IMG/VR virus record: IMGVR_UViG_3300028384_001185
Coordinates: 1-31,253 of that record
Strand: one strand, 5' to 3'
From: a virus
DNA: 31,253 nt
Made by a program: the position numbers and the translations under genes. Positions 49 to 29,663 of this stretch are shown here, one piece after another; the stretch's first letter is position 1; every line of letters starts with the position of its first letter. The notes beneath the pieces were generated by a model. That model was given only the letters and a program-made list of their open reading frames with translations, did not search any database and had not been told where the DNA came from.

Positions 49-1596
49 CTATTTGTATCTTATAATCAATTTAAGATCAGATCCAGCAGTTGTAGATCCT
101 ACAGCCGTCACGTCGACTGTTAAATAATCACCTTCGTTTACTTCGATAGGTGTTGTTACTGTATTTGCTGCATTGTTTTGTCCAGCAGATACCGATAATG
201 TATGTATCGAAGAACCGTTCTTATTTACTTTGATATTCAAAGATGATCCTACAGGAGCAGTACCAACAAACGGTCTAATCTTTGTGATTTCAATATCGCG
301 TGGTGCATACCAACGAGCGGTTCCTGTGGTTACGCTCAATTCACCATCTTGCTCGAGTGTAGTATGTGCTTCTGTCTGAACCTTCTGTTCCTGCTGTGAG
401 GTGACACCAAGCCTTGCATTAATATAATCTGAATCAATGACAGAACCTCGAGTATTTTGAAAAATGCTTTCAACCTTATTTGAATCAAGAGTTGATAAAA
501 ACCTCTCTTGTTCGTCGATGATATTCTTTTCTTTCATGAAGTTTTTCATGCGAGTTTCGTCGATAGAATTTCTTTCGATCTCTTCTTTAATCTTGTCGGC
601 AAACGTAGTTGTCTTTTCCATATATTCACGAAGATCTTGTGGAACAAACTTCCCTTTGGATGCATCATATGTCAAACACATTTGACCTTGGATAGTTGGC
701 ACATCTCTGACTGGAGCAGGGTTTGAATGACCTTCTTGAGTGTGCTGCAAGTAAAGCACATATTCTCCATTGCCATTTGTCTCTACTGCCAAGTCTTTGA
801 TATTAATTGCACCACGCATTGAGGAATGATTACCGCACTGATAATACAAAGTATTAGGGGCATTTGCAGGAACTACGAATGTAAGAGTACCGCTTTGTGT
901 TCTCGAGTTTGTTACGCCACTCGTATATTCACCTACATAACTACCAGCAGCGAAGTTATCTCCATTGTCCGTAGTCAGATAGAATGGATGTCCTGATGCA
1001 TCTACGACAAAGTTATATGTATTGCCTCTGCGAAGTGGTCCAATATCTGGATTTAATCCTACTTGAGTACCGGTAAACTTATATGACCCACCTTGATGTC
1101 CTACATTATAAGTAACAGCCGATGTATTCAGAGTTGGTGCAGTAAATGTTTCTGGAACTACCCAATTTAACCTTTGTACTTTTTGGCCAGAATCTGTAAC
1201 TCCAGCAAATGTGATATTATTTACACTATCATATGTTACCCAATCAACCAAGTTGTTTTCACCTGGTTCTTCAATCCATTTTAAAAATATCTTATGTGTC
1301 TGTGAAGAGCTATCATTCATATTAAAAGCCGCAAAGTTATCGAGCTGATAAGTACCTTTACGATAAATTGGTATTTCAGTTTGTGTCTGTAATGTGATCT
1401 TTTCTCTTTGATATGGCAACGTGGTTGGGTTCCAAGACCACTTCCATATGCCATGTCCTGAGTCTCTATTATCTACAGCAAAGTTGAGTGTTTCTGGTTC
1501 AATCGACTGATCGATGATGTTATCAAACACATCGATCTTCAGATCTCCTGATGAGTCTTGGATAAGCGTTGCGATTTGTCTATTTCTTGATGCCAT
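49..1596 (-). CDS. 515-aa virion protein with a cupredoxin-like domain and C-terminal beta-sandwich
   Basis: This is probably a virion decoration, fibre or baseplate-associated protein; I do not recognise a named T4 homologue. Residues 1-150 are beta-rich and unidentified. Residues about 160-267 look like a cupredoxin: a GHPF motif with His203, then Cys254, His257 and Met260 in the order and C-x2-H-x2-M spacing of type 1 copper proteins such as amicyanin. Residues about 325-385 are highly charged and helical, a likely coiled coil, followed by a DSDYINAR element shared with the fibre genes. Residues about 415-515 (WYAPRDIEITKIRPFVG to the end) form a beta-sandwich of a kind common at the C-terminus of marine phage tail proteins. 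Start: the ATG at 1596 overlaps the stop of the preceding gene as TAATG, so translation is coupled. The function of the copper-site-like domain is unknown. Confidence 0.85.
   Translation of the reverse strand: MASRNRQIATLIQDSSGDLKIDVFDNIIDQSIEPETLNFAVDNRDSGHGIWKWSWNPTTLPYQREKITLQTQTEIPIYRKGTYQLDNFAAFNMNDSSSQTHKIFLKWIEEPGENNLVDWVTYDSVNNITFAGVTDSGQKVQRLNWVVPETFTAPTLNTSAVTYNVGHQGGSYKFTGTQVGLNPDIGPLRRGNTYNFVVDASGHPFYLTTDNGDNFAAGSYVGEYTSGVTNSRTQSGTLTFVVPANAPNTLYYQCGNHSSMRGAINIKDLAVETNGNGEYVLYLQHTQEGHSNPAPVRDVPTIQGQMCLTYDASKGKFVPQDLREYMEKTTTFADKIKEEIERNSIDETRMKNFMKEKNIIDEQERFLSTLDSNKVESIFQNTRGSVIDSDYINARLGVTSQQEQKVQTEAHTTLEQDGELSVTTGTARWYAPRDIEITKIRPFVGTAPVGSSLNIKVNKNGSSIHTLSVSAGQNNAANTVTTPIEVNEGDYLTVDVTAVGSTTAGSDLKLIIRYK
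817..1060 (-). other. Cupredoxin-like domain in the 515-aa protein
   Basis: Ligand-type residues read directly from codons: His203 (codon 990-988), Cys254 (837-835), His257 (828-826) and Met260 (819-817). The Cys-His-Met loop reads QCGNHSSMRG, with C-x2-H-x2-M spacing. The first His precedes the Cys by 51 residues, close to the 47 of plastocyanin. Whether copper is bound is inference. Confidence 0.7.
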
Positions 1597-2114
1597 TACA
1601 CTAACTCAAAATAGTTAAACCTAAATGATGCATTGTAGGTTATGAATTCGGTTCCTGATGCTGTCGATTCAAAGTTGATATCACCGAGTGCTACAGGCAC
1701 TGCATCAATATATCTTACTTTCTTTGTTGTGTTATTATGACTTGATAAAATAGAAAGAGTAATGTCAGCGTATGTTGGTGGCTCTTGCATTGTAGCACCA
1801 GCCTTTTGTGTGCTACTTACTCTATAGTCAATATCTGTGTCGAGTAGTCTACGAATCCATTGAAACATCTCATCGTAGCCTTGCATGTTTTCGTCAAGAA
1901 TAATATTACAACTTAATTCGTTAAACGTAAGTTTATCTCCTGGAAATGGTACACCAGTGACCTTACGAAATGGCATTTCAACAGCAGTCATCAACATACC
2001 AGGATGTGTCACTGACTGACAGAAGAATTCCAAGTTTGGATAATTACGTCTATCAATAGTCAGCTTAAAACTGGTAGGTTGTAAATAATTAAAGTTGTCT
2101 GTTAAACTTGCCAT
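1596..2114 (-). CDS. 172-aa tail-tube-fold-like structural protein
   Basis: A small beta-rich protein whose size and layout resemble T4 gp19-type tube proteins. The N-terminal segment FKLTIDRRNYPNLEFFCQSV followed by HPG parallels the tube pattern of a strand, F-x-C, then a Leu/His-Pro-Gly turn. A long middle strand-helix element (DENMQGYDEMFQWIRRLL) corresponds to the helix before the last strands, and the end, SFRFNYFELV, is a typical closing strand. It is clearly different from the true gp19 at 7478-8005, so it may be a second tube paralogue, a tube-initiator or terminator subunit, or a baseplate hub component. It is the first gene after the capsid terminator and has its own late promoter (2120-2127), with no Shine-Dalgarno before the ATG at 2114. 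The assignment rests on pattern recognition only. Confidence 0.65.
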   Translation of the reverse strand: MASLTDNFNYLQPTSFKLTIDRRNYPNLEFFCQSVTHPGMLMTAVEMPFRKVTGVPFPGDKLTFNELSCNIILDENMQGYDEMFQWIRRLLDTDIDYRVSSTQKAGATMQEPPTYADITLSILSSHNNTTKKVRYIDAVPVALGDINFESTASGTEFITYNASFRFNYFELV

Positions 2115-2190: not shown

Positions 2191-3552
2191 TTATGCGCCG
2201 AGGATGTTGTCCACGCGGAAGATACGATAGTACTGGTTAGTCTTTGCTGTTGCAAGACCGTCAGCAGGATTTGTTCCAACGAATGGATTTGAGACCATGC
2301 CGTAGCGAGTCTTAAAGCCAATCTTCGGCTGGAATGTGTCCTCACCAACCGCACGAACCATTGTGAGTGGTACGTATGGGCAATAGAACAAGCCAGCATC
2401 GTATGGGTTTGTACCCTTATAACCGATGTTAACATAATCGCCTACTGCGTATGGATCGATATAAACACGCATACGACCGTTAAGTACACCAGCAAATGTG
2501 TTGCCTGTGTCATCTACGTTCAATGCTGTGTTCATAGCTGGAGCATAGTCCAACATGCCTGAAGCAGCAAGTGCTGAGGCAACGTCTGAAGAACAGATCA
2601 TGAAGTTACCCTTACCGCGACGTGTTTCTTTCGCGATTGTGTTAGCTTCACGCTCGATCTGTACGATCAGACCCTTGAACTTTTCAACTGACCAACGACC
2701 GTCTGCATCTGTCTGCAGGTCGAAGATACCGTTGATTGCTGTGTTAGTTGTTGATGCACCAGTCTTCGCTTGTGAGTTAACTGTACGAACAACTTCACGG
2801 TTGATTTCAGCCATGATTTCTGTTGACAGAATATTTGCCAACTCAGTTTCAGCGTCAAGACCATGAATTGCTTTCAAGTCTTGTGCCAATTCCAAGCTGT
2901 ATTCTGCTTTCAGTGCACGTGACTTTGCAGTCACTGTTGCCTTATCGATTGTGAAACCCATTTCAGCAAATGCTTCGCCACCTGTTTCACCAAGTGATTC
3001 AGCTTCTGCAGTTGTGTATGGATCGATAAGTGATGCTGGATCACCACGAGAATCGTCGATGGTTGAGTCTGAGTTAGTGTCAGTCAAACCTTCTAGACCT
3101 GATACTCCAACGTTAGCTGGATGTGACGCTGTGCTTGAGTCACCAGAGAAGTTTGATAGTGGCTCATTGAACAGAGCTTCTGTACCCTTACCGCCGTTAT
3201 CGTTGTTATTTGCGCCAGCTTTTGTTGTCTTGTAACGTGACTTCATCGCGAAGATAAGGCCAGTTGGACCAGACATTGGCTGAACACCACACATGTCGTA
3301 TGCCATCAAGTTTGGCATCGCACGACGTACAAGCGCGATCAGTACTGGGTTCCAGTTCTGTACGTTTGCTACGTTGTTTGTTGGTGATTCTGCAAGCATT
3401 TGACCTTCTTCGATCAGTGCTTGTTCTTGGTTTTCAAGAACAGCTGCTGTTACAGCTTTCCTGTGTTGATCTTGAATTGTTCCCGCTGACTCAGAGTTCA
3501 GTACTGGGGACCATTTCTCAATCAGTTTATCGTAAGATACTACGTTATTCAT
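2191..3552 (-). CDS. 23: Major capsid protein gp23
   Basis: The main shell subunit of the head (453 aa; T4 gp23 has 521). In T4, gp23 assembles on the gp22 core and is then cut by gp21. Residues about 50-100 carry the family signature: GQMLAESPTNNVANVQNW, then NPVLIALVRRAMPNL and CGVQPMSGPTGLIFAM. A likely gp21 cleavage site is after LAE at residue 55 (consensus Leu/Ile-x-Glu), removing a helical propeptide of about 55 residues. The C-terminal third (KIGFKTRYGMVSNPF, YYRIFRVDNIL) is the conserved shell-forming end. The ATG at 3552 has a good Shine-Dalgarno (GGGAG) eight bases upstream. It follows the scaffold gene by 14 bases; I see no consensus late promoter immediately before it, so it is probably transcribed with gene 22 or from a non-consensus promoter. 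Confidence 0.97.
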   Translation of the reverse strand: MNNVVSYDKLIEKWSPVLNSESAGTIQDQHRKAVTAAVLENQEQALIEEGQMLAESPTNNVANVQNWNPVLIALVRRAMPNLMAYDMCGVQPMSGPTGLIFAMKSRYKTTKAGANNNDNGGKGTEALFNEPLSNFSGDSSTASHPANVGVSGLEGLTDTNSDSTIDDSRGDPASLIDPYTTAEAESLGETGGEAFAEMGFTIDKATVTAKSRALKAEYSLELAQDLKAIHGLDAETELANILSTEIMAEINREVVRTVNSQAKTGASTTNTAINGIFDLQTDADGRWSVEKFKGLIVQIEREANTIAKETRRGKGNFMICSSDVASALAASGMLDYAPAMNTALNVDDTGNTFAGVLNGRMRVYIDPYAVGDYVNIGYKGTNPYDAGLFYCPYVPLTMVRAVGEDTFQPKIGFKTRYGMVSNPFVGTNPADGLATAKTNQYYRIFRVDNILGA

Positions 3553-13066: not shown

Positions 13067-13462
13067 TTATCTCCATGTCGTAATGATTAAAGCATGGCCA
13101 CTATCCATACCAGCTGTTGTCGTTATTGTATTTTTGCCTGTCATGGTAAAATCTAAGTTTTCATCCAGCAAATAACCATTTAAATAGACCATGATTGTTG
13201 CTGAATCGAACAACAAGCTATTACCATAATCGTCAGCTCCTGTGAATACAGTATCTCCTGAATCCGCTTCAAAGAAATACTTGCTCATCTGCAAGGCGCG
13301 TGCTTGTACATAGTCAGAATCTACCACAGCTATCGTAGCCGCAGAGTCTAACGTGTTTACTGATTCAAGAGTAGTAACTCGACCATCTAGATCGGTGAAG
13401 TTTCCGTCTAGTTCACCATGTGTGAGCTCCACTCCTTTCGTGCTTCTTAATGTGATCGTCAT
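13067..13462 (-). CDS. 131-aa protein with one fibre-type YLNG cassette
   Basis: A small structural protein. It opens MTITLRSTKGVELTHGELDG, a start I know from phage tail-fibre proteins. Residues about 38-56 carry one DSAATIAVVDSDYVQARA repeat, and residues about 60-131 form one beta-rich cassette (YFFEADSGDTVFTGADDYG ... MVYLNGYLLDENLDFT ... ALIITTW). That cassette occurs six more times in the 2642-residue protein, so the gene looks like a minimal single-unit version. It may be a head or neck fibre or an adaptor. The ATG at 13462 has TAGGAG six bases upstream, 16 bases after the gene 15 stop. Confidence 0.85.
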   Translation of the reverse strand: MTITLRSTKGVELTHGELDGNFTDLDGRVTTLESVNTLDSAATIAVVDSDYVQARALQMSKYFFEADSGDTVFTGADDYGNSLLFDSATIMVYLNGYLLDENLDFTMTGKNTITTTAGMDSGHALIITTWR

Positions 13463-17040: not shown

Positions 17041-18345
17041 CTAGAAAGTTAACGTGTTAAATTCATCGGTTGGATCTATCATTTGAATAGAGACAGTACC
17101 AGAAGATGATTGTCTATTATTAATACTACCGCCGAGATATGTTGGAGCAGAGGCACTTGTGTTACTTGTTACATGAATCCAAGTGTTTGCTCCGGTACCA
17201 GGACTTGTTCCGTTAGATTTGACCCATATCTTTGATCCTGCTGTCGGGCTATAACGATACGCAACATAAAAATTGTTTAATCCACCAAACGCACTACCAC
17301 CATTTGTAGTTTTTGTTCCAGGATTCGAACCAGAAGTAGTCACACCACTAGCATTATCTCCATTACGACTGTTCAGTGCTACATATTCCAATAAGGTATC
17401 ACTTCCGTCATACACTCTAAAGCCGCCGGTGCCTCTATGATTTGAATTTCCGCTAAGTCCCTTAAACCAATATATTGCTAAGAATTCACCATCTGGCAAT
17501 GCCATTGTTTTAGGTTGGACTAGCATACCATCAAATAGTTTTGAGTGTGTAGTCATATTCCACTGATAAGCACTAGCATCATAATTCGTAGAGAAGGTGC
17601 CACCGTCGCCGTACGCATCTGTCATTGTAACTGTGGCATTCTGCCATGCGGTGCCTTGTGTTTCAGGTTTGACCACTCCACCCGCTAATCCAATGTAGTT
17701 AATTGTTGCATCTTTTGATAGAATGTTAATACCATCAGTTGCTTTAAATGTATATGTAAATACTCCACCAGCAGAATCATTATGCAATCCAGCTGCAACA
17801 TTATTCCATACTGTTTGTGCAGAGTTTGGTGTAAAGGTAACAGTTCCAGCATCTGAATCTACTATTATGCTTTGCATAAGTGGACCAGCAGAATCTGCAG
17901 CAGTACCCAGATATCTAATTGGTATACCTTCTGAGTCAGCAGCTTCTATAGTGACGACTAAAGGTGTTGCACTATCATCAATTGAATAAGATGCAGCAGG
18001 TTCACCACTATCTGTCCATGTTGGTGTATTGTTAACAATCGTAGCCGAATACCATCCATTACCATTATAAACATACATACGATTATTTGAGTTTACAAAT
18101 GCCATACTTCCTGTATCCGCAGTAGATAAAGGAAGACTTCCAATAGAATCATAGACAGTAAGAGAACCGCCCTCTCCAGTTCGAGATTGTACATGATCCG
18201 AATCAATATGGCTTTGTACATATGATGCATCTATAAGAGTTGTTGCAGCCGCAGAGTCTAATGATCTATGCAGCAAAGGTAGCTTGTTCGTATTCCTTTT
18301 GCCTGTCTTTGACAATATGATCGATATGTCTCTTGCTCTACCCAT
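17041..18345 (-). CDS. 434-aa fibre-like protein with GWY module and cadherin-like domain
   Basis: Probable tail- or neck-attached adhesion protein, last of three related neighbours. The basic N-terminus MGRARDISIILSKTGKRN is of a type seen at phage fibre attachment ends. It is followed by DSAAATTLIDASYVQSHIDS repeats, then the shared module VYDSIGSLPLSTADTG ... NGNGWYSATIV at about 65-105, then a cadherin/Ig-like domain at about 110-220 (VVTIEAADSEGIPIRYLG ... TVTFTPNS ... YTFKATDGINI), and a C-terminal beta sandwich (about 230-434, FLAIYWFKGLSG, GGFRVYDGSDTLLEYVAL). The ATG at 18345 has AAAGGA and AAGG upstream and a possible late promoter 13 bases before it. Receptor binding is inference. 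Confidence 0.85.
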   Translation of the reverse strand: MGRARDISIILSKTGKRNTNKLPLLHRSLDSAAATTLIDASYVQSHIDSDHVQSRTGEGGSLTVYDSIGSLPLSTADTGSMAFVNSNNRMYVYNGNGWYSATIVNNTPTWTDSGEPAASYSIDDSATPLVVTIEAADSEGIPIRYLGTAADSAGPLMQSIIVDSDAGTVTFTPNSAQTVWNNVAAGLHNDSAGGVFTYTFKATDGINILSKDATINYIGLAGGVVKPETQGTAWQNATVTMTDAYGDGGTFSTNYDASAYQWNMTTHSKLFDGMLVQPKTMALPDGEFLAIYWFKGLSGNSNHRGTGGFRVYDGSDTLLEYVALNSRNGDNASGVTTSGSNPGTKTTNGGSAFGGLNNFYVAYRYSPTAGSKIWVKSNGTSPGTGANTWIHVTSNTSASAPTYLGGSINNRQSSSGTVSIQMIDPTDEFNTLTF

Positions 18346-19471: not shown

Positions 19472-21738
19472 TATATAACTCCTGTATATTTTTCATGATC
19501 AGTGACAATAATCGAACCTCGCATGGAACTGTGAAACTGGCAATTATAATAATATGTACCACTAAATTTTGGATTCCAAGTGATTACACCATCTTCAGTA
19601 CCATTATTTTCGATATCATCAATAGTACTTCCAGTTCCTGTTGATTGTGTAGTTCTAATCCAGAATGGGTGACCTCCAGCATTTACACGAATCCTTACGA
19701 GATCACCAGTATTAACACGTATAGTTGCGTTATCGGTTAAATCAGATACAGTTTCATAGTCTACACTATTAGCCGATCTCATTTTTCCAGTAAAGTTATA
19801 CGAGACATTAGCATTATTTACTGCATATAGATTGATATTAGCTTTATCGAAAGGATGAGTCCTGAATAAATGAATATCTCCACGATTTACTTGTGTACCA
19901 GAACCACCATATGTAGTATCAGAATCTACGTATCTAGCACCAATCACCACAGATTTGCCATCGGCTGTTGTTTCGATATTATCACCAAAACCAATAGTTG
20001 TGCCTGCATCGATGCCTGATGGATTTCTCGATAATTCACTAATCTTTTCGAATCCATCTCCAACTCTATTATAAACCATTACAACTTCACGATGATATCC
20101 AGTACCAAAGTAATGGTCTGAATCGACTACATCTTCGACAAATAAGACATTGCCATCACGCGAAAGTGTAAGTGTATTACCGAAACGAATGGTTGGGTCA
20201 CCGGGTATATTACCTTGACCATCGATCCTTTGAGTTAATTCCCAAGAATCTGCACCGTCATACTTAAATACAAACACTGCACCTTGGTTACTATCAGGAT
20301 CTGATAATCCTGCCGCTGCTTTTTCCCTACTTTTTGTATATCTGGGTGCACCAACAACAAGTGTTTCGAAAGCAGAATCAATGGCTATAGCACCGGCATA
20401 TCCTGTGATAGTATTGTCGACTGCGGATCTTAATCTAATCTCTTCTGGTATAGGAACTATTGAGTGTTGAGACCATTTTTCTCCGGTTCTCTCCCAAACT
20501 TCATATTGGTATGTTTTAATTGCAGACCAACCTGCTGGTTCTGACCAATCACTTTCAAAGTATCCAACACTATCTCCATACCATAATACTTTTTTGCCGT
20601 CTTTGCTCAAAGCATGTGTTACACTTACATTGCTCGGTGTGAAGATTTCACGTTGTTTAGTCCATGTATTTGATGATCTCGTATAGACAGATATATCACC
20701 AGAATCTTCATCAGTTGCGGCTGCTAACATATAGTCATACGATCCTGAGTTAATATGTATCCTTCCTGGTATATTAGCATTAGCTGCTAAACCTCGTACC
20801 TCGTTTCTTTCTATAAACTCACCACCTACAGAGTCTCTATTAAGATAAATAAATCTTCCTTGTTCTGTGAGATTGGCTGTAAAGTTGCCTTCATTTAATA
20901 CAAGGTGTAAGCCATCATCACTTATTCTATTATAACTTCCGGTGCCCCAAACTGTATTGGTGTTCGTCCACATATTTTGTATTAAATCATAACTTCCTGT
21001 ACTATCGTTTTTTGTCCATGTAAGTAATGCTCCAGGAGCTATGAACATATTATTAAATCTTCTCACATAAAAACTAGTAATACACTTGCCGTCAGGAGTT
21101 ATATTGATACCGTACTGACCACCTAATTCATCATTAGCTCCATGATCTGGCCCTTTATTAAATTCAAGCTGATATGAATTACGCCAATCGTTGCTATCAT
21201 TAAAGTGAGAAAAGTTGATAGTCTCTGATAAAGTAGCAAAGCTGATACCATCACTCACCTTGAAAGTTACTAAGCTTGAGTCTACAGTTGCTAAGCTACT
21301 GTCTAGAGGAGTAAATGTGAAGATAGAAGAATCTTGTGTAAACGTCGCAAGGTTTCTTAAGTTTCCATCAGATTCAAGACTATACTGTAACGGGTTCGAA
21401 TCAGCATCAGTGGCTATTAACTGTATTATGGTACTATTTTCAAGCTTTGATAAGAGTGTATTCCTTGAAGGCGTAGTGTCAATACCACTTAAGGACGATG
21501 CTGTTGGAGCAGACCGCGTAAGAGTTGTAGAATACCAGTCTTCACCATCATATAAAAAGTAGAGATTACTATCAAGTATATAAGCTTGTGTCCCTGAATC
21601 TGCCGAGCTTGGAAGTGCACCATGAGAATCATATGATTTAATTCCAATAGAATTTGATATCTGAGTAATCGCCGCAGAGTCAAACCCATTACCACCATAG
21701 ACACTAGCTTTAGTTAGTCTAATTGAACTTAGCTTCAT
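19471..21738 (-). CDS. 755-aa adhesion protein: GWY module, cadherin-like domain, FG-GAP-like propeller, cupredoxin
   Basis: Probably a receptor-binding or virion surface protein. Order: residues 1-75, an N-terminal element with GGNGFDSAAITQIS and the shared YDSHGALPSSADSG ... GEDWYSTTL module; about 75-180, a cadherin-like domain (IIQLIATDADSNPLQYSL ... VTFKVSDGISFATLSETI); about 190-635, blade-like repeats, the last ones matching FG-GAP/integrin-alpha propeller pattern (ETLVVGAPRY, FGNTLTLSRDGNVLFVED, IGFGDNIETTADGKSVVIGA, RGDIHLF); about 650-747, a cupredoxin-like domain with His690, Cys733, His736 and Met739. The start overlaps the upstream stop as ATGA. Nothing like it is in T4. The propeller call rests on motif spacing only. 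Confidence 0.87.
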   Translation of the reverse strand: MKLSSIRLTKASVYGGNGFDSAAITQISNSIGIKSYDSHGALPSSADSGTQAYILDSNLYFLYDGEDWYSTTLTRSAPTASSLSGIDTTPSRNTLLSKLENSTIIQLIATDADSNPLQYSLESDGNLRNLATFTQDSSIFTFTPLDSSLATVDSSLVTFKVSDGISFATLSETINFSHFNDSNDWRNSYQLEFNKGPDHGANDELGGQYGINITPDGKCITSFYVRRFNNMFIAPGALLTWTKNDSTGSYDLIQNMWTNTNTVWGTGSYNRISDDGLHLVLNEGNFTANLTEQGRFIYLNRDSVGGEFIERNEVRGLAANANIPGRIHINSGSYDYMLAAATDEDSGDISVYTRSSNTWTKQREIFTPSNVSVTHALSKDGKKVLWYGDSVGYFESDWSEPAGWSAIKTYQYEVWERTGEKWSQHSIVPIPEEIRLRSAVDNTITGYAGAIAIDSAFETLVVGAPRYTKSREKAAAGLSDPDSNQGAVFVFKYDGADSWELTQRIDGQGNIPGDPTIRFGNTLTLSRDGNVLFVEDVVDSDHYFGTGYHREVVMVYNRVGDGFEKISELSRNPSGIDAGTTIGFGDNIETTADGKSVVIGARYVDSDTTYGGSGTQVNRGDIHLFRTHPFDKANINLYAVNNANVSYNFTGKMRSANSVDYETVSDLTDNATIRVNTGDLVRIRVNAGGHPFWIRTTQSTGTGSTIDDIENNGTEDGVITWNPKFSGTYYYNCQFHSSMRGSIIVTDHEKYTGVI
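19522..19780 (-). other. Cupredoxin-like domain in the 755-aa protein
   Basis: AGGHPFWIR gives His690 (codon 19671-19669); YYYNCQFHSSMRGSI gives Cys733 (19542-19540), His736 and Met739, spacing C-x2-H-x2-M. His to Cys is 43 residues. The HSSMRG loop is identical to that in the 515-aa protein 18 kb away. Confidence 0.7.
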
Positions 21739-24700
21739 GACGTATCGACTCTTTCTGTATAGACCAGTGTATTTCCTGGTGTGCCGCTATAAAAACGCAC
21801 TCTATCATATATAAATGCCCATGCACCTGTATGACTCACATCTAAATTGCCTATATCAACAACAGTGTTTCGAGAATTATAAACTGCTGACCAAGAACCC
21901 GAAGAGCCAGCTTCTGTGTTTGCAACACCTGGACTTGGAGTGCCTGTTTGTCCCCAGTCTAAGGTTGCCACTACTGAGCTATCACGTTCAAATTCTATTG
22001 ATCTCCACGATCCAGCACTGTTGGCGTTATTAATAGCTCCTACCAACCAAAGAGTATGATCTTGGTCATACGGTCCAGCTAATGGTCCAGTATATCTATC
22101 AGTAGCAAATGCAACATAACCATAATTTGGAGTATTCAATGTATTCCATGGATCTGTGCCTACTGTACCCGTCTTTGTCGCCCACATATTCCATTCATCA
22201 TCACCAGCCAAATCTTCGGCAGAATAATTATTTAATGTCATGGTGATATTATACCAACCAGTTCCATTTGTGATATAATAACGATTCGTACCTTTTACAT
22301 ATGCTTCAGTTCCAGCGACTAAGCTTGTAACAGGCAATTCTCCGATTGAATCATAAACTGAAACAAGATTATAGTATACTAATCCAATCGCAGCTTCGTC
22401 GATATCGATGACTAGATTCGAATCAGCACCCATGATATTTTCACCGTTTCTATTCAAAGTAATGTTATTAGATCCAGCATTACCACCACCATCTATGATT
22501 CTTACTTCTGTACCAAGTCCTGGACCAGGCGGGAGAGTAAGATCAATAGGATTAGTCGTTGTATCGATGATGTTCTTTGAATTTGAATCTAGTTCAATGT
22601 TCGTAGATATCGTAGTCCATGAGGATGCCTGAGACTGTCGAGCTTGAATATATGCGCTATCGATAAGATTGGTTACACCAGCCGAATCGACTGTACCTCC
22701 ACCACCATTATTGATGATGTAGTCTTCATTAATTAGACTCAGTACAGTTGCAGAATCAACACCGATATTATTGCCAGTATACTTGATCGCCTGCAGTATA
22801 TCGCCCGAATCAGCGGCTTCTGTCAGTACAATACTAGTTCCGTTTGTTGCAGTATAATCAGCACTCTGTAGGAAGATACCATTTAAATAAACGTTTAATC
22901 TACCTACGCTATAATCGAGAGTTTGGCTATAATCGTCTGCACCGCTAAACGTTGTTTGACCGCTATCAGCAGTGTATTCATAAGTTATCTTAATATCGTC
23001 GTTTAGTGCTGCAGCCGTTGTCAGTGTTACTTCATATCCATTCGTAGCTGTATAGTCATCGCTGTCTTGTAGGGCAATACCGTTTACATAAACGACAGTC
23101 ACAGCATTAGAAGCGTAAGTGAGAGTGTCACCTCTACGATCTTCTCCTGTAAATGTTGTTTGACCTGAATCAGCTAAGAACTGATACTGTACTGTCTTAA
23201 GATCTTTAGCTCCGCTAAACTGTTGAATTAAGAAGACGTCTGATGATATTGCTGCCACAGTTAAGTTGATGTTTGTACCATCGGTTGCTGTATAATCGGT
23301 TGTTTCTGCAAGTAAATCGCCATTCTTAAATACTTGAATACTACCAGCTACGTATGTGAATCCAGTTTTGTTGAGCGTAGTACCAGTAGCACCAGTAATT
23401 TTTGTTACACCAATATTTAGACTCGATACCAAAGAACCCTTCGTGTTTACGACTGATAATAAGTCAGAAGAGTCAGCAGCATCAGTTAGTGTGATAGTGT
23501 TAGCTTCTCTTGTAAAGTCATTCAGCGGTGATAGTAAGATACCGTTCAGGTACACTTCTATGACACCAGATGAAAGATCCATCGTCAAGCTTTCATTATC
23601 TGTGCCAGAAAATACAGTTTGTCCAGAGTCCGCAGTGAATTGGAAAGTAGTTTGAGCGAGTGTAGTCTTCTTAATTACTCTACCAACTGTCTCGATTACA
23701 GATACAGAATATCCACTATCGAGTGCTTCAGTAAACGTAACGTTCGAATCAACGATCGTATAGTCTGTAGTTAACTCTTGTAAGATACCGTTAATGTAAA
23801 CTTCAGTATTGTCAGGATCGACTAAGAATGTCTTACCAAACTTATCTGCTCCGCTAAATACTGTATCACCTTGATCAGCCTCGAAGAAATACTTATTGAC
23901 TTCAAGAGTACCACGAGCTAAGACACCCTGCCGTGATTGGATGTAATCTGAATCAACTTCTTGTTGTATCAGAGTAATCGTAGCAGCAGAATCAACGCCT
24001 TCGGCCGCTGCTTCAGGTGGTGTATACTTAATGATAGTAATATTATCACCGAGAGCAGCAGAATCAGTCAGAGTAATAGTTGAGCTGTCTGTTTTTGTGA
24101 AGTCGGCCGAGTCAACAAGTAATACACCATTTAGGTATACATTAATATCTACACCACCTGCATTATAGGCGAGTGGAACATTATTATCATCAGAATCAGT
24201 AAATGTGATTTGACCTGAGTCTGCAGTATAGACAAACTTACTGATCGTTAGACCATCTGCAACTGCGCCACCACCGCCGCCTCCGGATGAGTTAATAGTG
24301 ACAGTTTTTGTATTTGCATCTGTCGAAAGTGTGATATTAGTACCAGCTTCAAATGTCAGTGTATCTGTTGCTGTACCAGCAACGATATCATCATTACCAC
24401 TCACTGATATTGTCTTAAACGCTACGTTAGCACCACCAGCACTGACAGCTTCTCTTGCTTGGATATAATCTGAATCGATGATTGCAAAGATAGCGTCAGA
24501 ATCTAATCCACCAACACCACTACCTGTGCCTGATTCTCTTTGAGCAATATATGCAGAGTCGATTAGTTGTGTTACCAACGCAGAATCGATCAGTTTTGGT
24601 ACACCAGTTATATTAGACCATGAGTAGTCTTGTCTTTGTGCAACATAAGCTGAATCAACGTGTGCTGTGACTCGACCATTTGTATAATAAAGGTTAGTTG

Positions 24701-27700
24701 AACCTTCACTCAAATCGTCAGTATCAAAACCAGTTAGGTTACGACTCATAACGAATACAGAATTACCCATATATCCGTGTGCTGTACACTGATAATGCAG
24801 AACCTGTGGAGTGGTGTCAGTTACTTCGATCTGAGTATATGAACCAGCCTGACCAGCTACGCCATTAGTCGTTACACCTGCAGTATATTGTGTCGTCTTC
24901 GCAGCATCATAGTAGAATGCGATTGGATGACCAGCGTTTGTACCATTTGATTGATCAAAGCGATACTTATTTCCTGGTACAAGCTGAAGCATAGGAGCTT
25001 GTTGATTGCGAATCACGTAGCCGTTTGTAGATCCAGTGCCTTCATATCTGTGTGCTACTGTTTTTGTGCCAACTTCAACTAAGAAAGTTGTTACATCAGA
25101 ATCATGTAGAAACTCAAGATATTCAAGACCAACAATTCGATTAGTCTCAAGTTGATTATCTCCATCTTCACCAAATATCCCTTTTACTTCATTCGAATCA
25201 AGGACGTTTGGAGTGCCGGTTAAGTTACTATAGTTTAGGTAATAAGCACCGTGTTGACCGTCAAGAGTATCAGCATCGATATTCAATGCATCAATGTTTG
25301 TCTTATTCTGTACAGGAATAGTCGGCTTACTGGTTATATTATTCCAGTCGAGATAATGACCAGCTGACTCACCATTTAGCGTCTCAGCATCTACAGCACC
25401 GAGAGCGTTGATGAAACTTACATTTACATGACTATCGATAATCGATACTACAGTACTTGAATCGGTTCCAGCTGCTGCAGCTCTTGCTGACACATATGCT
25501 GAGTCGACAGTGTCTGTAATCAGTGTGATAGTAGTGGCTGAATCTGTACCAGCTTCGGTACGTGCACTGATATAAGCAGAGTCAATTAATCCGGTCACTT
25601 GACCAGAATCAAGTCCGCCACTAAGAGCAGTAACCTCTGCATCAGTTCTTGATCTATCGATTTCTTCCCATTCTCTTCCACCGGCAAAGAATAAGAAAAC
25701 ATCATTTCCACTATAATAATCGCCAATTTGTTCAAAACCAATTCTATATGCTAACTCACCTGTAGGGTGTGATATATCTCTAAATGTATTTCCATTCGGC
25801 GTTACTGATTTACCAAGAGCAGAACCTCCAGAATTATACCATGTAAGAGTGTTACCGTTATTATTATCAGCATAATCACCATTTCTGTATTTGATCTCAG
25901 CAAGTCTACCAGCGTTGTGATCACTCTGTTCAATAACAATACCACGAATATCAACATCACTACTAAAGTCAAAATACATACCACCATTCAAATTTGGAGG
26001 TGAGAGATTAGGAGTGAAGAAGAACCAAGCATCAGCGCTTGTGCCTGCGGTAAATGTACCACCTAAAGCGTCAGTACCACTGATATCTGTTCTTGTTACT
26101 GATGATGGATTGTTAGCTACCCAGTTAATTAATTTACCAGCATAGGGAGAACCATTCACACTACCCGCAGGTATTGTAGTTGTAAGAGCAGTAGCTGGTA
26201 CAGACTTATAAAGAATATCACTGTCAGATTTATACCAGTATTCACCTACATTTAAAATTGCAGGTTCGGCAGATTGAATATAATATTTTGATGATGACTT
26301 AATTTTCGTTTTTGCGAAGATATAGTCGCTGTCTACATCATTTGCAATAATCGCACTGACAGTTGCAGAGTCAGTACCTCCTCCACTAGATCGCGCTGCG
26401 ACATAAGCACTATCAATCAAATTAATTACATTTTGACTGTCAATAGTATCCGGAGTTCCGGTCAGTGAGCTATACGCAAAATCTTGTCTGGCTTGTACAT
26501 AAGCAGAGTCAACGTTATTAACAAAAACACTTGATGCATTATCGATGATATTTGTTACATACGCTGAATCTGATCTTGCTTGAATATAAGCACTATCAAT
26601 GATTGCTTCTACTCGGGCATCTGTATAGTATAGGTTTGTACCTTCACTGAGATCAGTTGTACTATGATTTGAAATATTAGATACTGTACCTGTTACATCG
26701 CCAGTTAGATCACCTGTTACATCGCCAGTTAGATCACCTTCAAATGTGTTAGCAACCATCGTGCCAAGTGTAAATGATGGGTCTGAGGTATTGATATTGC
26801 CTTCTACTTCAGGATCATACTTATTGAATATCTTAAACTTTTGATCAGATGCATCACGGAAGAAACCAGCATGAGAGTAAGGTGCATCAGGTAAGTTATA
26901 GTTACCAACAATACCAAGATCCTGATTAATAGGGGCTGCAAGGCCATACCAATAATCACCAGAATCGTGGCCACCAGCAGTCTCGAATGTAATCTTAATG
27001 TTGTTTCTAATTGGTAATAACGTACGATCTTCAGATAGATCGAGTGTAGCTTCACCACCATCAGAATCAAAGTTGATGCGAGTCGAGGTACCGTTATCAA
27101 ATGCTCCTGCAGAATCTCCACTATGTAACCTAATAAGATCACCACCATTTGCAGAGTCAGCGTCATGAATAACTACAAAATAGTATTTAGATGAATCACC
27201 TTCATAGTAGTCTTTGATAAGACCATCATTTGTTCCAGTACCATCAAAGAGTGTAGTGACTGTGTCACCAGCACCGATATAAATGAAGTTGTCAGTAACT
27301 TGTAGGTTTTGTACTTTAGTAACTGTTTCTGTACCTAAAATATTTAGGTTACCAGCAACTGTCAAGTCAGCATCAAATCTACTGTTTCCATCTACACGAA
27401 TGCCTTCGAAGACCTCGGCCTTTGGATTAACTTGAATACAACCACCAACGTTGCCTCCTGATGCTGAGTCTGCAACTAAGACTGTACCAACTTCAAACGG
27501 ATAGTTAGGAAATTGTGGTTGAGTATTAGTTAATTCACCTGCAGAATCAAAAGATACGTGAACAATATCACCTGGATTAAATGCTGCGGTGTTCAATCCA
27601 CCATAAAGACCTCGCATAGTAACAAAGCCAAAAGCTCCGTCTGCGATAGAATGGGAAGTAAGACCAATGGTCGTGTACACTGTGCTAAAGTCATCTGCTT

Positions 27701-29663
27701 TTGCAAGAGCGATGGTTGGGAAATCGTTAGAGGCGCCAGTTACGTAAACTGCCTTTCCTTTGGCGATAGTTGTACCAGTGTTATTGTATACTCTAACTAC
27801 TTCATCTTGACCAATCTTAACATTGATCGAAGCATTTGAGTATGTAAGGGCGTCAGGACCTTGGAAGTAGAATAGGTTTCCTTCTTGGAAAGCAGGAAGA
27901 TTATTTGGTACATCTACGTCTGTATAAACATTCTCATCAAAGTTTAAGAGTGCAATCTCACCTGAATCTGCAACTACTCGATTGATAGTGATAGTCGAAT
28001 TTGAATCAACGTTAATCGTTCCAGTTGATGTATCATACTCGATACCTGTACCACCAGTTAGTTTTCCTCTTACTGCGGTAGTAAAGTCTGTAGCGACCGC
28101 ATAGTTCGAATCATTACCTAAGAAGAACTGATCGTTATCAAGGTTGGGTGTAGCATTTGTACGACCTGCACCACCAACTTTAATAGCCATGTTAGATGTT
28201 GGCGTATGTCTCTGGATCCTACCAATATTTTGAATAAGATTACTTTCACCAGATGGTTTTACATTTGTAACATGACCAGCTTCAGAAGCACTCACATAAA
28301 CAGTATCATTCGGTCCAAACGTAATACCAGTTTCACCAAAGTTAGCAACATTTATATTTTGTAGATTACCAAATGTGACAACTTCTACGTTATTACTGGC
28401 TGTTACGTCTGCGGATACAAAACCCATTGCAGGCATCGTGGAAGAGCTATTTGCTCTTGCTAAATCAATAGTTGACGTGTTACCCTGAACACCTGTCACA
28501 TAGACAAGTTGTCCTTTTAACATGTCAACATCGGCTCGAGCTATGAACCTTACAGCACCATTTAAGTCACCAACAAAATCATCTGCGGTAACAGTACTAA
28601 ATGTTACATCTGAGGTCGATAGTAAGTCTTGATCGGTCTTTACACGTTGCCTTACATATGCTGAGTCGACTAATCCAATAGTGTTATCGGAATCATAAGT
28701 TGTATAACCAGCATCGTTAGTGAAAGATGATACATTAGTCGGTGCACCAGTCAACGACCCATAAGCGTAGTCTTGACGTGCTTGAACATAGTCGCTATCG
28801 ATCAGATTGATCGCTTCAGCAGAATCGAGATAGAGATCTTTTACTAGATTATCGATATAAGTTGAATCGATGATTGCAACAACTTCTGAAGAATCGAGTT
28901 GACTCGCCACATTTGAGTCGATCTTATCTAAGAAGTACTGAGCGTGATAACCATCGAGTGTATCAGCATCAACGTTGAGTGCATCTACAAATGCTTTATC
29001 AACATCTGCAGTGATGACGTTTGAGACGTCGACGTTATCAAGGATGAGAGGCTTATTTGTTACATTAGTCCAATCACGATAGTATGCACCATCTTGTCCT
29101 TCTAATGTATCAGCGTCGTTGCTCTGTCTTGCTTGGATATATGCAGAATCAATAAATGCTGTTAGCTCACCACTATCAAAATTATTCGCATTGATGAGTG
29201 TTATAACTTCACTAGAATCCAAAATAGTTGGTACATTATAAAGATTATTGAAGTTATTATAGTAATTAGGGTTCAGACCACCAAGCGTATTAGCATCAAT
29301 TGTTAGGCTATTGATATATGCTTCTGTGACTCGAGCTTGTACATATGCAGAGTCAATAAGATTAATAGCTTCAGCCGAATCGAGGAAGAGATCAGGGTCG
29401 ATTCGTGCATTCACATAGTTTGAGTCTACAAGTACTAAGATTTCAGAAGAGTCAAGTTGAGATCTGGCAATTATCTCAACTGCATTTGCGATCGATTCAA
29501 CTCGAGCCGAATCGACGAAAGCCTTTATCTCGTTAGAACTATTTTTATAATAGATCTTACCATCATTGTAGTTAATCGCGATTTCGCCATAATCGAGATC
29601 CCCTACCTGTGGCACTCGACCTGATATAGCAGATCGTTTGAGTAATACTTTTGGTGTTGCCAT
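21735..29663 (-). CDS. 2642-aa mosaic fibre-like virion protein
   Basis: The largest gene, almost certainly a long fibre or similar virion appendage. Residues 1-50 (LLKRSAISGRVPQVGDLDYG, EIAINYNDGKIYYK) match a common phage fibre N-terminus. About 50-340: repeats of DSAYVQARQ type and DADTLDGYHAQYFL type. About 340-510 and 615-740: a duplicated beta domain (MLKGQLVYVTGVQGN and IAKGKAVYVTGASND). About 990: GDLTGDVT repeats. About 1200-1340: a sandwich-like domain. About 1540-1640: cupredoxin. About 1800-2295: six YLNG cassettes. About 2420-2480: the YDSIGELP ... GTGWYNIT module shared with the next genes. The ATG at 29663 has AGGAAGAG upstream. There is no internal stop over 7.9 kb. It is not clearly homologous to T4 gp34 or gp37, so I give no symbol. 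Confidence 0.9.
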   Translation of the reverse strand: MATPKVLLKRSAISGRVPQVGDLDYGEIAINYNDGKIYYKNSSNEIKAFVDSARVESIANAVEIIARSQLDSSEILVLVDSNYVNARIDPDLFLDSAEAINLIDSAYVQARVTEAYINSLTIDANTLGGLNPNYYNNFNNLYNVPTILDSSEVITLINANNFDSGELTAFIDSAYIQARQSNDADTLEGQDGAYYRDWTNVTNKPLILDNVDVSNVITADVDKAFVDALNVDADTLDGYHAQYFLDKIDSNVASQLDSSEVVAIIDSTYIDNLVKDLYLDSAEAINLIDSDYVQARQDYAYGSLTGAPTNVSSFTNDAGYTTYDSDNTIGLVDSAYVRQRVKTDQDLLSTSDVTFSTVTADDFVGDLNGAVRFIARADVDMLKGQLVYVTGVQGNTSTIDLARANSSSTMPAMGFVSADVTASNNVEVVTFGNLQNINVANFGETGITFGPNDTVYVSASEAGHVTNVKPSGESNLIQNIGRIQRHTPTSNMAIKVGGAGRTNATPNLDNDQFFLGNDSNYAVATDFTTAVRGKLTGGTGIEYDTSTGTINVDSNSTITINRVVADSGEIALLNFDENVYTDVDVPNNLPAFQEGNLFYFQGPDALTYSNASINVKIGQDEVVRVYNNTGTTIAKGKAVYVTGASNDFPTIALAKADDFSTVYTTIGLTSHSIADGAFGFVTMRGLYGGLNTAAFNPGDIVHVSFDSAGELTNTQPQFPNYPFEVGTVLVADSASGGNVGGCIQVNPKAEVFEGIRVDGNSRFDADLTVAGNLNILGTETVTKVQNLQVTDNFIYIGAGDTVTTLFDGTGTNDGLIKDYYEGDSSKYYFVVIHDADSANGGDLIRLHSGDSAGAFDNGTSTRINFDSDGGEATLDLSEDRTLLPIRNNIKITFETAGGHDSGDYWYGLAAPINQDLGIVGNYNLPDAPYSHAGFFRDASDQKFKIFNKYDPEVEGNINTSDPSFTLGTMVANTFEGDLTGDVTGDLTGDVTGTVSNISNHSTTDLSEGTNLYYTDARVEAIIDSAYIQARSDSAYVTNIIDNASSVFVNNVDSAYVQARQDFAYSSLTGTPDTIDSQNVINLIDSAYVAARSSGGGTDSATVSAIIANDVDSDYIFAKTKIKSSSKYYIQSAEPAILNVGEYWYKSDSDILYKSVPATALTTTIPAGSVNGSPYAGKLINWVANNPSSVTRTDISGTDALGGTFTAGTSADAWFFFTPNLSPPNLNGGMYFDFSSDVDIRGIVIEQSDHNAGRLAEIKYRNGDYADNNNGNTLTWYNSGGSALGKSVTPNGNTFRDISHPTGELAYRIGFEQIGDYYSGNDVFLFFAGGREWEEIDRSRTDAEVTALSGGLDSGQVTGLIDSAYISARTEAGTDSATTITLITDTVDSAYVSARAAAAGTDSSTVVSIIDSHVNVSFINALGAVDAETLNGESAGHYLDWNNITSKPTIPVQNKTNIDALNIDADTLDGQHGAYYLNYSNLTGTPNVLDSNEVKGIFGEDGDNQLETNRIVGLEYLEFLHDSDVTTFLVEVGTKTVAHRYEGTGSTNGYVIRNQQAPMLQLVPGNKYRFDQSNGTNAGHPIAFYYDAAKTTQYTAGVTTNGVAGQAGSYTQIEVTDTTPQVLHYQCTAHGYMGNSVFVMSRNLTGFDTDDLSEGSTNLYYTNGRVTAHVDSAYVAQRQDYSWSNITGVPKLIDSALVTQLIDSAYIAQRESGTGSGVGGLDSDAIFAIIDSDYIQAREAVSAGGANVAFKTISVSGNDDIVAGTATDTLTFEAGTNITLSTDANTKTVTINSSGGGGGGAVADGLTISKFVYTADSGQITFTDSDDNNVPLAYNAGGVDINVYLNGVLLVDSADFTKTDSSTITLTDSAALGDNITIIKYTPPEAAAEGVDSAATITLIQQEVDSDYIQSRQGVLARGTLEVNKYFFEADQGDTVFSGADKFGKTFLVDPDNTEVYINGILQELTTDYTIVDSNVTFTEALDSGYSVSVIETVGRVIKKTTLAQTTFQFTADSGQTVFSGTDNESLTMDLSSGVIEVYLNGILLSPLNDFTREANTITLTDAADSSDLLSVVNTKGSLVSSLNIGVTKITGATGTTLNKTGFTYVAGSIQVFKNGDLLAETTDYTATDGTNINLTVAAISSDVFLIQQFSGAKDLKTVQYQFLADSGQTTFTGEDRRGDTLTYASNAVTVVYVNGIALQDSDDYTATNGYEVTLTTAAALNDDIKITYEYTADSGQTTFSGADDYSQTLDYSVGRLNVYLNGIFLQSADYTATNGTSIVLTEAADSGDILQAIKYTGNNIGVDSATVLSLINEDYIINNGGGGTVDSAGVTNLIDSAYIQARQSQASSWTTISTNIELDSNSKNIIDTTTNPIDLTLPPGPGLGTEVRIIDGGGNAGSNNITLNRNGENIMGADSNLVIDIDEAAIGLVYYNLVSVYDSIGELPVTSLVAGTEAYVKGTNRYYITNGTGWYNITMTLNNYSAEDLAGDDEWNMWATKTGTVGTDPWNTLNTPNYGYVAFATDRYTGPLAGPYDQDHTLWLVGAINNANSAGSWRSIEFERDSSVVATLDWGQTGTPSPGVANTEAGSSGSWSAVYNSRNTVVDIGNLDVSHTGAWAFIYDRVRFYSGTPGNTLVYTERVDTS
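22780..24250 (-). repeat. Six tandem YLNG cassettes within the 2642-aa gene
   Basis: Each unit of about 75-85 residues reads roughly ADSGQTTFSG-x-D, a Tyr/Leu strand, V-Y-L/V-N-G-I-L-L, D-Y/F-T, T-L-T-x-A-A-x-S-G-D, then a short strand. Clear units contain VYLNGVLLVDSADFT, VYINGILQELTTDYT, VYLNGILLSPLNDFT, VFKNGDLLAETTDYT, VYVNGIALQDSDDYT and VYLNGIFLQSADYTA. The fourth lacks the ADSGQTTFSG start. A seventh copy is in the 131-aa gene. Confidence 0.88.
24768..25080 (-). other. Cupredoxin-like domain in the 2642-aa protein
   Basis: NAGHPIAFYY gives His1579 (codon 24929-24927); LHYQCTAHGYMGN gives Cys1626 (24788-24786), His1629 and Met1632. The His to Cys distance is 47 residues, the same as His37 to Cys84 in plastocyanin; the loop is C-x2-H-x2-M. 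Sequence around it differs from the other two copies, so it is not a recent duplicate. Confidence 0.7.
26689..26736 (-). repeat. 24-bp perfect tandem repeat in the 2642-aa gene
   Basis: Two adjacent identical 24-bp copies (26689-26712 and 26713-26736) encode GDLTGDVT twice, within FEGDLTGDVTGDLTGDVTG. Being a multiple of three and perfect, it is probably a recent slippage product that keeps the frame. Confidence 0.92.

Follow-up and report, generated by a model that had tools for sequence, protein, structure and literature searches.

Plastocyanin and amicyanin are small secreted electron carriers with an eight-strand sandwich fold and four copper ligands in a characteristic order, and amicyanin carries the last three of them in a C-x2-H-x2-M loop (CTPHPFMRG). 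In copper nitrite reductases and multicopper oxidases, cupredoxin domains form part of an enzyme architecture with type 2/3 motifs (HxHxH). Tailed phages offer a different precedent, the Ig-like decoration domain, a promiscuous surface beta-sandwich of another superfamily that is reused in unrelated virion proteins and has no metal site. We found no description of a cupredoxin, or of copper, in phage structural proteins in the open-access full texts that were searched. The type 1 copper domain itself is known, and automatic databases may already label some of the proteins treated here as cupredoxins, but a widespread module of phage tails that keeps the ligands appears to be undescribed.

The DNA analysed here, referred to as the window, is the 31,253-nt viral record IMGVR_UViG_3300028384_001185. 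Because its gene order includes portal, sheath, tube, terminase and capsid genes, and its nearest isolates are Phage C48C1 (terminase 72%, capsid 65%), Pelagibacter phage HTVC008M and Methylophilales phage Melnitz, the window is, judged by its sequence, part of a T4-like marine phage of the Kyanoviridae type. The features on which the following discussion is based are these:

49-1596, minus strand: 515-aa ORF (P0001), probable fibre or baseplate-peripheral protein
790-1116, minus strand: cupredoxin-like domain 1, residues 161-269 of P0001, supported by AlphaFold2 and Foldseek
817-837, minus strand: predicted ligand loop Cys254-x2-His257-x2-Met260, in YYQCGNHSSMRG
988-990, minus strand: predicted copper ligand His203, in a GHPFY motif immediately ahead of the strand predicted for domain residues 45-48
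1596-2114, minus strand: tail-tube-like protein (PHROG 45 tail tube, E 5.8e-26), whose gene separates P0001 from the capsid gene
2191-3552, minus strand: major capsid protein (gp23-like), 65% to Phage C48C1 (Kyanoviridae) and 59.5% to Pelagibacter phage HTVC008M
19495-19776, minus strand: cupredoxin-like domain 2, at the C-terminal end of a 755-aa ORF, with H690, C733, H736 and M739 at 19522-19671
24744-25043, minus strand: cupredoxin-like domain 3, inside a 2642-aa tail fibre ORF, with H1579, C1626, H1629 and M1632 at 24768-24929

An earlier note on this DNA had recognized in the 515-aa minus-strand ORF a blue-copper ligand set with the amicyanin-type C-x2-H-x2-M spacing, and His203, Cys254, His257 and Met260 are indeed encoded there (at 988-990, 835-837, 826-828 and 817-819, respectively). 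The interval assigned to the site in that note, 817-1060, contains the ligands and is too small for the domain, whose real span is 790-1116. Nor does P0001 adjoin the capsid gene, as had been stated; it lies one gene away, with the tail-tube-like gene intervening.

P0001 comprises an N-terminal domain (residues 1-160), the cupredoxin-like domain (161-269), a helical region (approximately 320-410) and a C-terminal beta region (approximately 418-514). Its residues 120-269 match PHROG 677 (baseplate wedge/tail fibre connector, E 2.4e-19), the similarity being confined to profile positions 262-411 of 412 rather than extending over the whole length, and its C terminus shows weak matches to the tail proteins of PHROG 2952 and PHROG 7049. 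Taken together with the surrounding structural gene cluster, these matches make P0001 a probable fibre or baseplate-peripheral virion protein. The PHROG 677 members from cyanophages, i.e. the gp9 proteins of S-SSM5, Syn9 and P-SSM4, have as their C-terminal domain the very domain discussed here, with all four ligands, whereas P0001 has it in the middle of the protein, preceded by an N-terminal domain of its own and followed by a fibre-like C-terminal part.

The conserved N-terminal domain matches no known family, and a 160-aa query representing it retrieved only 19 viral loci. Within it, residues 65-153 (window 1138-1404) bear a weak repeat-like similarity to the cupredoxin domain (THKIFL..., GVTDSGQKVQRLNWVVPE), lacking the Cys and Met ligands. 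Late HMM iterations took in this region, and a comparison of alignment A2 with alignment A1 gave an E-value of 0.00027; however, with the broader domain profile described below (A3) the N-terminal region reached an E-value of 0.09 and a probability of 0.6%, leaving the repeat reading unsupported there. The full-length P0001 modelled by AlphaFold2 without an alignment had a pLDDT of 38, with residues 418-514 scoring better, and this part of the model may, at low confidence, explain weak matches to C1q/jelly-roll heads. A nucleotide search of phage records found nothing. In Phage C48C1 the slot of P0001 (L150:18267-18920) is occupied by an unrelated 217-aa hypothetical protein, which by eye resembles a 2-oxoglutarate/Fe(II) oxygenase.

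The structure of domain 1 was predicted with AlphaFold2 from 51 aligned sequences, yielding a model with eight strands, a pLDDT of 97.4 and a pTM of 0.90. In the numbering of the domain, H43 is placed before the strand 45-48, C94 ends the strand 89-94, and H97 and M100 precede the strand 101-107. When the model was compared with PDB using Foldseek, the best matches were rusticyanin, copper nitrite reductase, plastocyanin, auracyanin and multicopper oxidases; ranks 1-13 were cupredoxins with probabilities of 0.99-1.00, and nearly all of the 50 matches listed were cupredoxin or multicopper-oxidase folds. The TM-scores to solved cupredoxins were moderate (0.5-0.65), which counts against the copper-site explanation. 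A fold other than a Greek-key sandwich, which the earlier note had considered fatal to its interpretation, is thus not what the model gives, and we confidently predict that residues 161-269 of P0001 adopt the cupredoxin fold.

Evidence for kinship at the level of sequence depends on the method. Searches with single proteins gave nothing convincing, and the window domain scored 13.6 bits with TIGR02657 (amicyanin, cut-off 110.2) and 12.6 bits with PF00127 (plastocyanin/azurin, cut-off 21.2); it is therefore not filed in either family. The domain of the 755-aa ORF reached 18.7 bits (E 0.0018) with Cupredoxin_1 (PF13473), below the cut-off of 27 bits. That the window copies fall short of the Pfam and NCBIfam cut-offs for known copper families weighs against explaining the domain as a copper site. 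On the other hand, hmmsearch with a profile of 23 divergent domain copies (A3, from which the ligand-less copy L134 was deliberately omitted, along with four other representatives) found the copper nitrite reductase 6hbe as the best PDB match (E 1.1e-8), the plastocyanin 2plt (E 1.3e-4) and many further plastocyanins at about 1e-4 to 1e-2, with the ligand columns falling on the known copper ligands. The top PDB matches of our first profile, 8a14 and 9rxk, were dismissed as chance, both reflecting one common stretch that resembles a protein G tag.

An alignment to amicyanin by hhalign had a probability of 80% (E 1.4e-5), compared with 0.3% for a control in which another part of P0001 was aligned to alignment A1; the A3 search of PDB constitutes the test that is independent of the amicyanin and poplar plastocyanin sequences used in such alignments. 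The alignments and the A3 search agree in placing the four residues at the ligand positions of plastocyanin and amicyanin, as the earlier note had proposed. With a predicted sandwich of about eight strands and detectable homology to solved cupredoxins, the domain can be assigned to the cupredoxin fold superfamily, and the order of the ligands, their placement relative to the strands and their conservation across the family are those of type 1 copper proteins. A relationship may extend to plants: 24 of 51 phage relatives (including L070 and L079) match PF25489 (At5g54830-like), L077 doing so over most of the domain with 29.3 bits against a cut-off of 27. This family is named after a plant CYBDOM protein, and the window copies tested had no match to it; a PF25489 search of viral contigs gave no hits even for the controls and is thus uninformative. 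It is possible that the plant domain is itself related to cupredoxins.

The phage domain shares with amicyanin and plastocyanin the predicted eight-strand sandwich and the order of the four ligands, and its CGNHSSMRG loop aligns with the corresponding loop of amicyanin. It differs from both in having a longer loop between the strand that follows the first His and the next strand, in being embedded in large phage proteins, and in having HP rather than HN after the first His. His-Pro at the first ligand also occurs in the type 1 sites of multicopper oxidases, but no type 2/3 motifs or enzyme architecture of the kind present in those enzymes and in nitrite reductases are seen in the phage proteins. 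The HP could also be taken as a hint that the His2-Cys-Met set binds a different soft metal, for instance Cu(I) alone, Ag or Zn, and serves for scavenging, for storage or for structure only. In vitro, Zn, Hg or Cd can indeed occupy cupredoxin sites, and sequence alone cannot identify the metal. Yet a His/Cys/His/Met set with the C-x2-H-x2-M spacing is the specific signature of type 1 copper sites, and the profile's nearest neighbours whose ligands fall into register are copper proteins, so we regard a metal site of another kind as distinctly unlikely and strongly predict that the domain binds copper.

The claim that the window encodes a set of three such domains within 31 kb, each with all four ligands, is confirmed by the 515-aa, 755-aa and 2642-aa ORFs, the last of which matches a tail fibre family (PHROG 30742, E 8.6e-51). 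The distance from the first His to the Cys is 51 residues in P0001, 43 in the 755-aa ORF and 47 in the 2642-aa ORF, and the pattern H-x(38,60)-C-x2-H-x2-M, observed three times in the 19 window proteins, had a mean of 0.0025 and a maximum of one occurrence in 2000 shuffles. All three copies are covered by one HMM family (domain scores of 166, 76 and 61 bits); they share only about 30% identity with one another and are therefore old copies rather than products of a recent duplication. Three copies, in ORFs matching in size and order, are likewise present on a related contig of 37.5 kb (IMGVR_UViG_3300017913_002411). The 2642-aa fibre (21735-29663) also has a DUF4183 match at residues 1800-1868 (E 4.8e-6, above the cut-off, in two stretches). 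It includes 11 occurrences of a ten-residue motif of the LIDSAYVQAR type, which is found once each in the ORFs at 13067-13462 and 17041-18345 and in P0001 (residue 386), and several fibre-type proteins are rich in Asp-Ser pairs (about 2-4 per 100 residues).

We assembled 149 distinct sequences of the domain from viral contigs, phage records and MAG contigs. The HCHM set is intact in 138 of the 141 that cover all four positions, a count that is partly biased, as some of the search patterns contained the ligand motifs. A fairer picture comes from the loci fetched with the N-terminal 160-aa query, which have HCHM wherever the domain is covered, and from tblastn hits in phages, nearly all of which have it too, divergent copies in P-HM2 and P-RSM4 having lost several ligands. 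The set is intact in 24 of 25 representatives sharing less than 50% identity (L134 included) and in 12/12 sharing less than 35%, the median pairwise identity of the representatives outside the ligands being 32%. In the A3 alignment, with a mean column identity of 34%, the four ligands are the sole invariant columns, followed by G22, F27, P35 and Y83 (each at least 90% conserved). A clade of fibre-type copies, L134-L138, has both His residues replaced (by Lys and Thr), with Cys changed to Ser in one member, and these copies are natural metal-free controls. Retention and loss affect the site as a whole, which is the behaviour expected of a metal site, and the strict conservation of the ligands combined with the joint loss of the His residues indicates that the set is selected as such, in support of the original suggestion of selection on metal binding.

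The same clade, together with the divergent copies of P-HM2 and P-RSM4, shows that loss of the site need not entail loss of the fold, and one could thus imagine the whole domain as a beta-sandwich that binds no metal, a relic of a cupredoxin retained for its fold, in which the four residues serve for packing only. Packing alone, however, would not be expected to leave one Cys, two His and one Met as the only invariant residues among 23 sequences at 34% identity, or to cause ligands to disappear jointly instead of singly; we accordingly hold this explanation to be improbable.

The domain is not peculiar to this protein or to the window, as it had first seemed, being a widespread module of baseplate and fibre proteins of marine phages. 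Searches with tblastn found it in 284 phage records with the P0001-type domain as the query, in 119 with the fibre type and in 47 with the 755-aa type, and a query of the cyanophage gp9 type (its first ~11 residues being filler from no record) hit 347 GenBank phage records, mostly cyanophages; these sets overlap. The carriers include T4-like and T7-like (Autographiviridae) phages of Synechococcus, Prochlorococcus, Pelagibacter and Methylophilales, Syn9 among them. Copies per genome mostly number 1-5, with five each in P-SSM2 and P-HM2. Many cyanophage proteins modelled in BFVD have the same domain at TM 0.7-0.95. BFVD structural matches at TM ~0.7 were also noted for three 'beta-sandwich proteins' of Marseillevirus/Pithovirus (A0A481YVH3, A0A481Z6J5 and A0A481YWX9), and giant viruses could, on the strength of these models, carry the domain too. 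It is absent from T4, P-SSP7 and Pelagibacter phage HTVC008M, and its absence from the latter two makes it dispensable, which weighs against the copper-site explanation.

In a bacterial genome collection, three of five loci (L145-L147, from Saprospirales/Flavobacteriales) lie in phage-like clusters of fibre genes, L145 and L147 having been read gene by gene and L146 sharing a contig with L147; the respective bins probably contain phage DNA. In the phylum of a Verrucomicrobiia MAG, 6 of 145 genomes have a copy (E <= 1e-4). The idea that the domain was borrowed recently from electron-transfer proteins of the host finds no support in these loci, nor in the amicyanin and plastocyanin cut-offs that it fails to reach.

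The annotations of the carrier proteins, which are approximately 300-4400 aa long, include baseplate wedge/tail fibre connector (gp9), tail fibre, proximal fibre, gp7, structural protein and, for a giant protein, S8 peptidase. This context makes it very improbable that the domain is an auxiliary metabolic gene product, i.e. a plastocyanin-like protein working in the infected cell and not in the particle: although plastocyanin genes are present in many cyanophages, here the domain is embedded in baseplate and fibre proteins, and the window copies belong to a late structural cluster.

The predominance of cyanophages among the carriers invites another thought, namely that the virion is redox-active, the copper site passing electrons to and from the host surface or oxidants generated by light, such that its redox state gates attachment or the conformation of the fibre. 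The ligands are those of electron-transfer cupredoxins and are kept far more strictly than the sequence of the fold. Adsorption of P-HM2, with its five copies, is light-dependent (in darkness it is inferred to be close to zero), while that of P-SSP7, which has none, is light-indifferent (PMC7112961). This correlation nevertheless comprises two phages from different families (n=2), P-SSM2 has as many copies as P-HM2, and the carriers infecting the non-photosynthetic Pelagibacter and Methylophilales speak against a purely photosynthetic link. We see a redox-active virion as possible though unlikely, and the more specific proposal, that type 1 sites on baseplate and fibre proteins are redox switches or sensors tuning attachment to the redox, light or copper state of the host, as slightly less likely still.

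The interpretation we favour, with a probability of roughly 0.6, is that P0001 is a peripheral tail or fibre protein containing a swappable cupredoxin module that is stabilized by copper and has a role in surface contact. Marine phages would have spread the domain over diverse fibre and baseplate proteins, much as tailed phages did with the Ig-like domains. The protein would be made metal-free in the cytoplasm of the host, where free copper is held extremely low, and for this reason loading would follow assembly, one copper ion being taken up once the domain is exposed to the periplasm or seawater. Copper would then lock this exposed sandwich in place. Cupredoxins dock to proteins through the rim surrounding the second His, and in the phage domain this rim might serve for contact with the host surface or for packing of the fibre against the baseplate. 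We infer such a stabilizing and docking role from the cupredoxin precedent and from the kinds of proteins that house the domain.

Cultured phages with the domain (P-SSM2, P-HM2 and Syn9) and without it (P-SSP7 and HTVC008M) allow these predictions to be tested directly. Should copper be bound, it would be present in the host-contacting parts of several hundred sequenced marine phages, among them many of the T4-like cyanophages that kill Synechococcus and Prochlorococcus. Their virions would then have a metal requirement, for which we found no measurement in the literature. Copper binding would also provide a reason for the hitherto unexplained conservation of 'hypothetical' fibre domains, and it might tie infection in the ocean to trace copper or to redox conditions.
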